This document shows positions 34,479-37,379 of a stretch of 64,000 bases of DNA, in pieces. A model generated the notes under the pieces. The model did no database searches. It was given only the letters and a program-made list of their open reading frames with translations, and was not told the DNA's origin. Within the stretch, counting starts at the first letter, position 1. Each line of letters begins with the position of its first letter. Source of the stretch: Pseudomonadota bacterium (lineage in GTDB: Bacteria; Pseudomonadota; Alphaproteobacteria; Puniceispirillales; Marisalimonadaceae); assembly GCA_027625145.1 (NCBI GenBank), contig JAQBXK010000001.1, positions 1 through 64,000 of the forward strand. Reading direction: 5' to 3'. The translations under genes were made by a program, and so were the position numbers.

Positions 34479-34589
34479 GATAATTAAAACTTTTTTTTAT
34501 TTCGAGATAAATATATTTCAAAAAGAAATTATTTTTTTTAATTATACTTGCTTTTTAGTTTCAAATTCAAGTATTATTAGTTTGTTTAT

Positions 34590-34804
34590 GGTGCTTTGAA
34601 TTTTTATTCAAGCTTAAAAGGGAATTTGGTAATTCGTAGTGAATTGTATGCCAAAGCTGTTCCCGCAACTGTAAGTGCTTAGTAAGAGCTAATATGCCAC
34701 TGAATTAATTTAATTTGGGAAGGCAAGCTCAAACATTGAGGCACGAGCCAGGAGACCTGCCATAGATTGTCGCTTTGTCAGCTTCCGGGTTAGAGGATGG
34801 CACG
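34590..34804 (+). promoter_or_regulatory. Cobalamin riboswitch aptamer
   Basis: The conserved core is almost complete. The P1 strands GTGCT (34591-34595) and GGCAC (34799-34803) pair. Between them lie TTAAAAGGGAATTTGGTAA, the CCCGCAACTGTAA segment, TGCCACTG, GGGAAGGC and the B12 box GAGCCAGGAGACCTGCC (34745-34761). The class senses adenosyl- or methylcobalamin and usually turns off downstream expression when B12 is plentiful. Directly downstream are a possible P13-like stem and an attenuator-like hairpin, then the TonB-dependent receptor. Confidence 0.96.
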
Positions 34805-34805
34805 T

Positions 34806-34829
34806 GTTAGAAATCGTCTGGCGACTAAC
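34806..34829 (+). promoter_or_regulatory. Stem after the aptamer (possible P13/kissing-loop arm)
   Basis: GTTAG (34806-34810) and CTAAC (34825-34829), with inner TCG/CGA, form an eight-pair stem with a three-base bulge and TCTGG loop. In cobalamin riboswitches a stem at this place carries the loop that docks with L5 and switches the expression platform. The assignment here is inferred from position. Confidence 0.45.
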
Positions 34830-34834
34830 TTATT

Positions 34835-34860
34835 TGAGAAATTATTCTCATTTATTTTTT
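34835..34860 (+). terminator. Attenuator-like hairpin before btuB-type gene
   Basis: TGAGAA (34835-34840) pairs with TTCTCA (34845-34850) through an ATTA tetraloop, followed by TTTATTTTTT. It ends three bases before the GGAGG ribosome-binding site of the receptor gene. It has the form of an intrinsic terminator controlled by the riboswitch, though the six-pair stem is weak. Confidence 0.55.
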
Positions 34861-34873
34861 GCTGGAGGCATTT

Positions 34874-36673
34874 ATGTATACACGTGCGCTTTTTTTATTT
34901 TTTATTTATATGGTATCTATCCCATCTAATGGGATTACAGAAACCATTCCTGATGATAAATTACTAAGAATTCTTATAACACCTAATCGTTTTCAAACGA
35001 AATTAAACCAAACTGCTTCAAATATCATTGTTATTGATAAGACAGATATTGAAAACTCCAATAGTAATTCATTATCCGAAATTTTAGATTCTCAAGCCGG
35101 AATAAGTTCTGGCAATCAAGGCGGAGTTGGACAAACTTCTTCATATTTCATTCAAGGATTTGAAAAGAAATATGTTTCCATTTTGATTGATGGTGTTAGT
35201 TATGCAGATAACACTGCTACTCAGTCTGAAACATATCTTAATTCTATTTCCTTAGATGAAATTGAAAGAATAGAAATTTTAAAAGGCCCTCAAGGTTCAA
35301 TTTATGGTTCTTCTGCGGCAGGTGGAGTAATTTCTATAATTACAAAAGGTAATTCCAAAAAAGGAATTAATACATCGTTCCAAACAAATTTTGGATCATA
35401 TGGCACTATATCTAGTACGCTTAATACTGGATATTCATCAGAAAAATGGGACTTAAATCTTTCTGTAAATGGAATGCATTCAGATGGATTTTCAGCAAAA
35501 AACTCTGTTGAAGAGGAAGAGAACGACAGTTTTAATTCTACTAAAACTTCATTAAAAGGATCTATTAAAAATGATGATAACCTTAAAGTTTTTGCAACAC
35601 TCAGACAAATTGATAGTAAAACTCAATATGATAACTCATGGACTGCAAATGATTTTAATAAGTTAAGACAAACAGCTGGAAGTATTAAATTTGAGAAAAA
35701 GATAAACAAAATTGATAGTTTTATTCAGCTTGCAAAACAAAGAACTGTTCGTCAATTTGATACATATCAATATTATGGAGATACATTTAATTTTGATTTT
35801 TTAAATCAATATAACATTTCATCTAATCATAATTTAACCATTGGCTTTGAATATGATGATGAAAAGTATAATGATAAAACTTTAAGGGCTGACAAAGATA
35901 GACATTCGTTTGTGACTGGAGTTAACGGTAATTTAAATAACAATTTAGGTTATGACTTTTCTTTACGAAAAGAAAACGATTCTACATATGGTTCTCAAAA
36001 AAGCACTCGAACAGAAGCTTACTATTTATTTAACCCTAGTTTAAGATTAGCTCTTTCTAATTCAACTGGATTCAGAAATCCATCTCTATATGAGACTTTT
36101 GAATCAACATATGGTACGAGAACACTTACTCCAGAAACTACTCAAACAAAAAGGATTACGATTTCTGGTAAAACTAAAATAATCAACGGTGCTTATTCAT
36201 TAAATGCTTACAAAAGTAAAATTTCTAACTTGATATCTGCAGCTTCTGGGACTTATATTTATTATAATGCCGATGGTGACACTAATATTTCTGGTATAGA
36301 AGGTAATATAAAATCAAAATTAGGAAAAAAAGTAGTTTCTAATTTCGGATTTGTAACAACACATAAAAAAACTTCGGACAATAAAAAAAATATATTGCTT
36401 CCTAGATATTCAATTTCAGGATCTTTAAATTATATTTTTAACAAAGATTTTAATTTAAATACTAATTTAAGTTATTCTGAAGGATCATACGATACAAGCA
36501 AAGTGGAGTTGCCAAGTTATACCCTTGTTGGTTTGAAAGCTAATTACAAAATTAATAATAAAACTAAATTTAATTTATCAGTTGTAAATGTTTTTGAAGA
36601 AGATTATGTTGTAAATAGAAATTACAATACTTCAGGTAGAGCAGTTTATTTGGGTTTTAAAACAGATTTCTAG
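34874..36673 (+). CDS. btuB: TonB-dependent receptor, probably for cobalamin
   Basis: The outer-membrane receptor imports its ligand with energy from TonB. ATG 34874 sits five bases after GGAGG; a longer frame from a TTG at 34859 would overlap the hairpin and is not preferred. The 599-residue protein has a signal peptide (about 1-20) and a TonB-box-like LLRILITPNRF. The plug domain includes SLSEILDSQAGIS, ILIDGV and RIEILKGPQGSIYGSSAAGGVISIITK, and a beta-barrel ends in VYLGFKTDF with a terminal phenylalanine. The cobalamin riboswitch in its leader points to B12 as ligand; size is like BtuB. Confidence 0.92.
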   Translation: MYTRALFLFFIYMVSIPSNGITETIPDDKLLRILITPNRFQTKLNQTASNIIVIDKTDIENSNSNSLSEILDSQAGISSGNQGGVGQTSSYFIQGFEKKYVSILIDGVSYADNTATQSETYLNSISLDEIERIEILKGPQGSIYGSSAAGGVISIITKGNSKKGINTSFQTNFGSYGTISSTLNTGYSSEKWDLNLSVNGMHSDGFSAKNSVEEEENDSFNSTKTSLKGSIKNDDNLKVFATLRQIDSKTQYDNSWTANDFNKLRQTAGSIKFEKKINKIDSFIQLAKQRTVRQFDTYQYYGDTFNFDFLNQYNISSNHNLTIGFEYDDEKYNDKTLRADKDRHSFVTGVNGNLNNNLGYDFSLRKENDSTYGSQKSTRTEAYYLFNPSLRLALSNSTGFRNPSLYETFESTYGTRTLTPETTQTKRITISGKTKIINGAYSLNAYKSKISNLISAASGTYIYYNADGDTNISGIEGNIKSKLGKKVVSNFGFVTTHKKTSDNKKNILLPRYSISGSLNYIFNKDFNLNTNLSYSEGSYDTSKVELPSYTLVGLKANYKINNKTKFNLSVVNVFEEDYVVNRNYNTSGRAVYLGFKTDF

Positions 36674-36683
36674 GTAATATTTT

Positions 36684-37199
36684 ATGTATTTTAATAAAAC
36701 AGTTAATAATTTTCTTATTTTTATAGGATGTGTTGGAATAATGTTTTTATTTCGAGTAATTCCACATCCGCCTAATTTTACTCCTGTAATTGCGCTAAGT
36801 CTATATTTACCAATTGTTTTTGGACTATGGTCTATACCTTTTTTTATTTTAGGTTTTGCAGTAACAGATTATTTTATAGAATTTCATAGTTTGTTAATAT
36901 GGACTTGGAGTAGTTTAGCTCTAGTTGGATTATTGTCACAATTAGCAAAAGGAAAATTAACTAGGTTATTACTTGCTTTTACGGGAGCTTTAATTTTCTT
37001 TATAATTTCTAATTTTGGAGTGTGGATAACAAGTTCTTTTTATACTCATGATTTTCAAGGTTTAATGAATTGTTATATTCTAGCTATACCTTTTTTTACT
37101 AATACATTAATTAGCACTATGTTATTTGCAGGATTATGTGAGTTTTTGTTTTCATCAAAGTTCTTTTTTTTAAAGTCATACGTAAGAAAAATTAACTAG
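36684..37199 (+). CDS. DUF6580-like small integral membrane protein, candidate B12 uptake component
   Basis: The 171-residue protein has about five membrane segments and the motif RVIPHPPNFTPVIALSLY near 24-41. Later come SNFGVWITSSFY and CYILAIPFFTNTLIS, which I recognise from the DUF6580/ECF-S-like membrane family. It begins 10 bases after the receptor stop and should be under the same riboswitch. No btuF, btuC or btuD gene is present nearby. I infer that it moves cobalamin or a precursor over the inner membrane, possibly as an ECF-type substrate-binding subunit; this has not been shown by sequence alone. Confidence 0.75.
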   Translation: MYFNKTVNNFLIFIGCVGIMFLFRVIPHPPNFTPVIALSLYLPIVFGLWSIPFFILGFAVTDYFIEFHSLLIWTWSSLALVGLLSQLAKGKLTRLLLAFTGALIFFIISNFGVWITSSFYTHDFQGLMNCYILAIPFFTNTLISTMLFAGLCEFLFSSKFFFLKSYVRKIN

Positions 37200-37302: not shown

Positions 37303-37379
37303 GGGGGTGTAGCTCAGTTGGTTAGAGCGTCGGCCTGTCACGCCGAAGGTCGCGAGTTCGAGTCTCGTCACTCTCGCCA
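37303..37379 (+). tRNA. tRNA-Asp (anticodon GTC)
   Basis: The acceptor stem GGGGGTG pairs with CACTCTC (37369-37375), allowing two G-T pairs. The anticodon arm TCGGC-CTGTCAC-GCCGA gives GTC. The T arm GCGAGTTCGAGTCTCGT is intact. The discriminator is G and CCA is encoded at 37377-37379. The 241 bases that follow, up to the VOC gene, hold only A/T-rich DNA with no gene I can support. Confidence 0.95.

Follow-up and report, generated by a model that had tools for sequence, protein, structure and literature searches.

A DUF6580 membrane protein behind a cobalamin riboswitch and a BtuB-like receptor: a candidate solitary importer of vitamin B12

Introduction

How does a bacterium that captures vitamin B12 at its outer membrane move the vitamin across the inner membrane if it lacks BtuCDF? 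This question is raised by an operon in the first 64,000 nucleotides of contig JAQBXK010000001.1 (assembly GCA_027625145.1), the stretch of alphaproteobacterial DNA analyzed here and referred to as the window. In this operon, a cobalamin riboswitch precedes a gene for a BtuB-like TonB-dependent receptor and a gene for a small membrane protein of the DUF6580 family. An original prediction, made from the letters of the window alone, held that the small protein supplies the inner-membrane step of a minimal cobalamin route in place of BtuCDF. This idea is supported by the content of the genome, the linkage of the family to cobalamin riboswitches, and a predicted fold similar to that of BtuM, from which we infer transport. 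The operon is probably the minimal B12 uptake unit of a B12 auxotroph, with DUF6580 as a solitary importer of the S-component fold that replaces BtuCDF.

Results

The riboswitch (34572-34778, plus strand) is an adenosylcobalamin-type aptamer that matches the full RF00174 covariance model (1-189), including the B12 box, with 118.7 bits (cmscan, E 3.7e-29) against a gathering score of 31.5. The complete aptamer that had been read from the sequence is thus present, and it begins 18 bases before the coordinate given at that time. The receptor gene follows on the same strand (34874-36673) and encodes 599 residues from its ATG, with Pfam Plug and TonB barrel domains. While the list of open reading frames gives the frame as 34859-36673, the ATG at 34874 is most likely the start because a Shine-Dalgarno-like GGAGG, read from the sequence, is located at 34864-34868 on the plus strand; a similar purine-rich site was seen by eye at the same place in other leaders. 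In the PDB, the receptor is best matched by Escherichia coli BtuB, over almost all of its length (E 1.2e-28), and the NCBIfam model TIGR01779 (TonB-B12) covers nearly its whole length with 275.3 bits. Because this score does not reach the curated equivalog cut-off of 599.7, we class the protein, earlier called btuB-type, as BtuB-like only. The DUF6580 gene (36684-37199, plus strand) starts 10 bases past the receptor stop in the same direction and encodes a 171-residue, predicted six-helix inner-membrane protein and candidate solitary corrinoid importer. Its PF20221 match of 100.2 bits (E 1.9e-28, gathering cut-off 27) confirms the DUF6580-like polytopic protein proposed at this position. Pfam assigns no function to PF20221, and no NCBIfam model matches the protein. 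Among the genes of the operon, Pfam revealed neither an ATP-binding cassette (ABC) gene nor a FecCD permease.

The genome that contains the window (G000) is SAR116-like and comprises 2.27 Mb in 83 contigs at 95.7% completeness; by protein similarity, the nearest named relatives of its DUF6580 are SAR116-cluster alphaproteobacteria. It carries one cobalamin riboswitch and one DUF6580. A profile search gave no match to the FecCD/BtuC permease, and a search of the energy-coupling factor (ECF) family CbiQ/EcfT (PF02361), which did not extend to EcfA, found none. The sole Peripla_BP_2 protein (G000:C83:2659-3552, locus L241, 297 residues) is solitary and lies on a different contig from the operon; its N terminus, MKIVSLLPAASEM, shows no signal peptide by eye. 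The original statement that BtuFCD is missing is therefore supported at the level of the genome, and neither an ECF T component nor a second cobalamin riboswitch emerged there. Consequently, G000 encodes a B12 receptor, but for the inner membrane these searches, which did not include BacA/SbmA-type proteins, revealed no BtuCD- or ECF-type importer. CbiC, the sole corrin-synthesis marker searched, is also absent from G000, and corrin ring synthesis is therefore improbable on this one marker. Judged from gene content, de novo corrin synthesis is unlikely, and the organism is probably a B12 auxotroph. This conflicts with PMC8547437, which reports B12 synthesis genes in all SAR116 genera. The single B12-binding domain of G000 resides in a methylmalonyl-CoA mutase, beside which large frames resembling propionyl-CoA carboxylase genes were noted by eye. 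As this mutase is the only B12-binding protein, the organism is taken to be an adenosylcobalamin user.

The relatives of the window's organism associate DUF6580 tightly with the riboswitch. Across 151 genomes (the window's own and 150 relatives), DUF6580 was present in 49, RF00174 in 106, and some FecCD match in 100 (63 above the cut-off). In 46 of its 49 genomes, the DUF6580 gene and RF00174 are no more than 8 kb apart, where chance would produce about 0.04 of 49. It is on the same strand and 1.9-2.2 kb downstream of the riboswitch in 43 of these 46, and the remaining three, all of one genus, converge with it at 2.7 kb. As for the exceptions, the DUF6580 of G038 starts 9 bases away from the edge of its contig, that of G128 is preceded by a btuB fragment, also at the end of a contig, and that of G126 is a short fragment. 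When the linkage of FecCD was counted from the 42 rows of ≥161 bits, leaving out weaker and partial rows, 13 relatives had FecCD at a distance of ≤12 kb from the riboswitch, and none of these has DUF6580. The two arrangements near the switch are mutually exclusive, and DUF6580 holds the place of FecCD. In other families of the same order, the riboswitch precedes cobW-cobN-like genes, not btuB (L242, L244, L245, L247, and L251), with a hupE-like gene in front of them in four of these five loci (Pfam names checked for L245 only). We read these loci as serving synthesis rather than uptake.

The same association is found in distant lineages. Protein similarity yielded 37 DUF6580 loci, 19 of which have a cobalamin-type riboswitch (11 RF00174 and 8 AdoCbl-II, RF01689). 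Five contigs titled Pelagibacteraceae (L009, L012, L015, L017, and L025; at ~1.33-1.53 kb in each) have AdoCbl-II in front of btuB-DUF6580, as do three gammaproteobacterial contigs (L018, L026, and L034) that we take to be of the SAR86 type. In an Omnitrophota contig (L014), RF00174 separates DUF6580 from a TonB receptor; in a Bacteroidetes contig (L020, genome G162), it is immediately followed by DUF6580 and then by a BtuF-like gene. In an even sample of the phylum Pseudomonadota (398 genomes), DUF6580 matches occurred in six genomes, four of them above the cut-off, and all four above-cut-off genes belong to riboswitch-btuB-DUF6580 units; the sub-cut-off matches in G303 and G454 were left out of the locus reading. 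Among 30 DUF6580 genomes outside SAR116, 10 have a FecCD match of any strength and four a full-strength one (absent from 26/30), and the 12 with a riboswitch at the DUF6580 locus include only one with full-strength FecCD (G162, L020); these absences are indicative only because genome completeness is not given. Throughout the SAR116, SAR11, and SAR86-like genomes, no membrane protein other than DUF6580 immediately follows the receptor. DUF6580 thus comes after cobalamin riboswitches from two Rfam families in several phyla, in favor of the original prediction.

To place the linkage on a phylogeny, a FastTree tree of 157 DUF6580 rows (149 different) was used. Linkage to a riboswitch requires 17 changes on this tree, compared with a mean of 52.7 after shuffling (0 of 500 shuffles were as low), and at least seven changes are forced by well-supported branches. 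In the tree group around the window, which holds SAR116, SAR11, SAR86-like, and related proteins, 47 of 49 rows are linked; the other two are L031, a btuB-DUF6580 pair with no Rfam match, and L040, a contig-end case. Since contig ends truncate some of the loci labeled unlinked, the linkage on the tree is a lower bound. One might suppose that a general membrane protein was caught behind btuB once and then inherited, since the rows around the window form a single tree group and many Bacteroidota copies lie elsewhere. However, the scatter of linkage over the tree and the involvement of two riboswitch families in distant groups leave an incidental operon link exceedingly improbable.

For the window protein (36 sequences), AlphaFold predicted six long helices plus a tail of low confidence, at a predicted local distance difference test (pLDDT) of 88 and a predicted template modeling score (pTM) of 0.82. 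The L020 protein (23 sequences) was modeled at pLDDT 92.8 and pTM 0.87; the two models are not fully independent because their alignments share sequences. VIA-align ranked BtuM as the best solved match of both (window, Z 15.1, rmsd 2.5 Å, 153 aligned; L020, Z 14.6, rmsd 3.1 Å, 164 aligned). The runners-up were other ECF S-components, within 1 Z of BtuM for the window model (BioY, 14.3) and 1.2 lower for the L020 model, and unrelated structures reached ~Z 8 or less. While Foldseek E-values do not discriminate for either model, the top rows are S-components, and the L020 model attained TM 0.71/0.73 with BtuM (8ovv) versus ~0.5 for most other S-components. DUF6580 is therefore predicted to adopt the six-helix S-component fold.

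This fold raises the question of whether DUF6580 depends on a shared ECF module, as an ordinary S-component would. A third DUF6580 profile, from alignment A1, picked out a single PDB chain at E ≤ 1, the 182-residue 6fnp_A of the ECF-CbrT entry (E 0.08). This candidate sequence link to CbrT was set aside, as the match disappeared with the slightly different alignment A2 and with alignment A4 (L026 and L029, which contain X, were left out of A1 and A2). Although the fold and this weak match would suit a module-dependent S-component, the window's genome has no CbiQ/EcfT to provide the module, and we regard such dependence as very improbable.

Seven residues, R24, N31, D62, W114, Y120, G126, and F137, are near-invariant in the 157 sequences. 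By helix order, they map in or close to loops 1, 3, and 5 and to the ends of the flanking helices, on one face of the model, which would be the side where BtuM binds cobalamin if the topology is the same. Cys130, at the start of helix 6, was invariant in the first 36 of 36 sequences and was considered as a family-wide cobalt ligand; this candidate was rejected when the larger set showed cysteine in 133 of 157 sequences (73/80 riboswitch-linked and 60/77 unlinked), with mostly serine in the others. No conserved cysteine is present in loop 3 (residues 66-70) of the 157 sequences. The apparent invariance of IFFIISNF is partly due to selection, as this peptide served as a search pattern.

Both linked and unlinked copies are abundant in Bacteroidota. 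In 198 genomes sampled around L020, DUF6580 was detected in 82 (81 above the cut-off) and RF00174 in 194. The 88 DUF6580 rows, without the sub-cut-off G637, amount to 87 loci when two pieces at G746:C123 are counted as one. Among the matches listed, nearly all of which come from DUF6580 genomes, a riboswitch lies within 6 kb at 16 loci, once on the opposite strand. An Rfam scan of the other 71 loci added 13, so that 29 of 87 are linked versus ~0.1 expected. One linked and one unlinked copy coexist in each of G644, G652, G701, G746, and G765. The frequent linked orders are TonB receptor-DUF6580 and TonB receptor-DUF6580-BtuF-like followed by a Sir2 or diphthine-ammonia-ligase-like gene, the latter label resting on similarity to a frame named by eye. 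A DUF5074 or weakly YncE-like beta-propeller protein just before DUF6580 (L154, L224, and L170) is reminiscent of Bacteroides BtuG, and further B12-type neighbors include BtuG-like propellers and a histidine phosphatase from the group to which alpha-ribazole phosphatase belongs.

In addition, the next gene after DUF6580 in 10 loci (nine distinct: L020, L028, L163, L164, L211, and L235-L238) encodes a homologue of the solitary Peripla_BP_2 protein of G000. As far as they are readable, these BtuF-like homologues start at the mature domain and have no signal peptide, and it is possible that such a protein acts as a cytosolic corrinoid acceptor. A broader proposal can be built on this arrangement, in which DUF6580 would be a widespread second family of solitary, ATPase-free corrinoid importers (SAR116, SAR11, SAR86-like bacteria, Bacteroidota, and others), independent of BtuM in sequence, and the signal-less trap would take the corrinoid off inside to make uptake one-way. 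We consider this extended proposal doubtful.

The unlinked copies have other surroundings. An unlinked clade (21 rows, from Balneolaceae among others; L185-L209 and neighbors) is flanked by genes that we take to be YceI-like on one side and by DUF4956/HlyD or SDR-like genes on the other; further unlinked copies are behind a gene that is presumably mannose-6-phosphate isomerase-like. Moreover, the unlinked copy in L023 precedes CobT-CobS. Together with the B12 riboswitches that precede cobalt transporters, such as hupE in the relatives, this copy would be compatible with a different B12-tied substrate, either cobalt or a lower-ligand precursor such as alpha-ribazole. However, de novo corrin synthesis is unlikely in the CbiC-less genome of the window, the partner gene there encodes a receptor of the BtuB type, which handles the intact vitamin, and the fold of the window model is nearer to BtuM than to CbiM 5x3x (Z 11.2). 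For the window protein, such a substrate is hence quite unlikely.

In the leader of the operon, a short hairpin (34835-34850, plus strand) with a T-rich stretch directly after it (34851-34860) is a candidate transcription attenuator. The hairpin was part of the original prediction and is indeed present, with its position relative to the start codon kept by eye in eight of eight leaders. However, its strength does not exceed that of shuffled sequences in most of the eight, a terminator scan of the leader found no terminator, the best-scoring hairpin of the L005 leader is a different one, and the whole leader folds with z = -1.0. With its position conserved and its strength not, the case for an attenuator is weak. 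Also in the leader, GTCGC at 34769-34773, 3' of the aptamer, is complementary to GCGAC at 34821-34825, 5' of the hairpin; both motifs are invariant in the eight leaders and possibly form part of the switching structure. Downstream of DUF6580, a tRNA gene is located at 37303.

Discussion

Our analysis suggests that DUF6580 most likely carries out the inner-membrane transfer in a minimal B12 route, resembling BtuM in its action while standing outside the BtuM family by sequence and by cysteine ligand. The riboswitch would turn the operon off at high intracellular adenosylcobalamin. At low levels, TonB-driven BtuB would deliver cobalamin to the periplasm, where DUF6580 would bind the corrinoid on its periplasmic side and pass it to the cytoplasm with no need for an ECF module or the BtuCD ATPase. 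The imported cobalamin would then supply methylmalonyl-CoA mutase and the propionyl-CoA pathway.

BtuM of Thiobacillus denitrificans (8ovv and 8c7p) is the closest known counterpart. Like DUF6580, it is a small six-helix inner-membrane protein of the S-component fold with a btuB context in a genome without EcfT, which on the DUF6580 side applies to the window's genome only. However, structural alignments give 13-17% identity between the two, and profiles detect no sequence similarity. BtuM coordinates cobalt axially through the invariant Cys80 of loop 3 (PMC6072759), whereas DUF6580 has no counterpart at this place, and its Cys130 is replaced in seven of 80 linked proteins. The same paper describes E. 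coli as having no ECF module. CbrT, the S-component of ECF-CbrT (6FNP), has its fold class in common with DUF6580 and, as proposed here, also its substrate, but CbrT depends on an ECF module (PMC5997447), for which the window's genome has no EcfT. Compared with BtuCDF, whose FecCD permease is behind the riboswitch in other relatives in the region taken by DUF6580 here, the operon offers a single small protein.

Several observations weigh against this proposal. First, a strong FecCD occurs elsewhere in 13 of the 47 genomes that have both the riboswitch and DUF6580. As a rival BtuC, this FecCD was discarded after two loci were inspected, L122 (G002:C22, with DUF6580) and L121 (G053:C3, without DUF6580). 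Both have the order DUF1636, ABC ATPase, binding protein, and FecCD next to a regulator of the FUR family and to CobW-type genes, with no B12 riboswitch, and this cluster probably serves metal uptake (Pfam names were checked for L121, except for the CobW-type labels). Second, BtuM was not found among the PDB sequences by two DUF6580 profiles (E ≤ 10), a search that involved no profile-profile comparison. Third, the conserved Cys130 is neither invariant nor located in loop 3, where BtuM holds its ligand. Fourth, 58 of the 87 Bacteroidota loci have no riboswitch within 4.5 kb upstream or 2.5 kb downstream, or within less at contig ends. Because of these many unlinked loci and their YceI/DUF4956 or isomerase-like neighbors, DUF6580 may have more than one substrate, and part of the family may carry something else.

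Finally, the S-component fold is also found in MreD and in histidine-kinase sensors (PMC11109136). The common fold alone does not establish function, and it is the fold and the operon together that point to BtuM-like action. Sensors with this fold, the decyanation that BtuM itself performs (PMC6072759), and the transporter types outside our genome searches would all be in line with DUF6580 being an accessory corrinoid handler, such as a binder, decyanase, or inner-membrane sensor, while another transporter, for example of the BacA/SbmA type, moves the vitamin. However, with no BtuC-type protein or EcfT in the window's genome, and with DUF6580 alone among membrane proteins behind the receptor in three groups and in the place of FecCD among the relatives, we judge this role to be unlikely, and we favor DUF6580 as the importer itself.

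Some members of the family are annotated at NCBI as 'DUF6580 family putative transport protein'. The name DUF6580 is absent from the papers searched, and our literature search, which did not cover the 2003 comparative-genomics paper predicting BtuM and where an earlier prediction is possible, found no function for it. BtuN is named in passing in PMC8954225 and PMC7038796. In metagenomes, B12 riboswitches have been described upstream of genes without an assigned function (PMC2211319). PMC9296465 leaves open whether the SAR11 btuB is regulated by B12, and the AdoCbl-II riboswitches before btuB-DUF6580 in the five Pelagibacteraceae-titled contigs bear on this question. If our proposal is correct, DUF6580 would be the second natural case, after BtuM, of ATPase-free B12 transport by an S-component fold. 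B12 uptake could then be called from genomes and metagenomes, and one small gene would supply the inner-membrane B12 step for abundant ocean bacteria (SAR11, SAR86-like, and SAR116) and many Bacteroidota.

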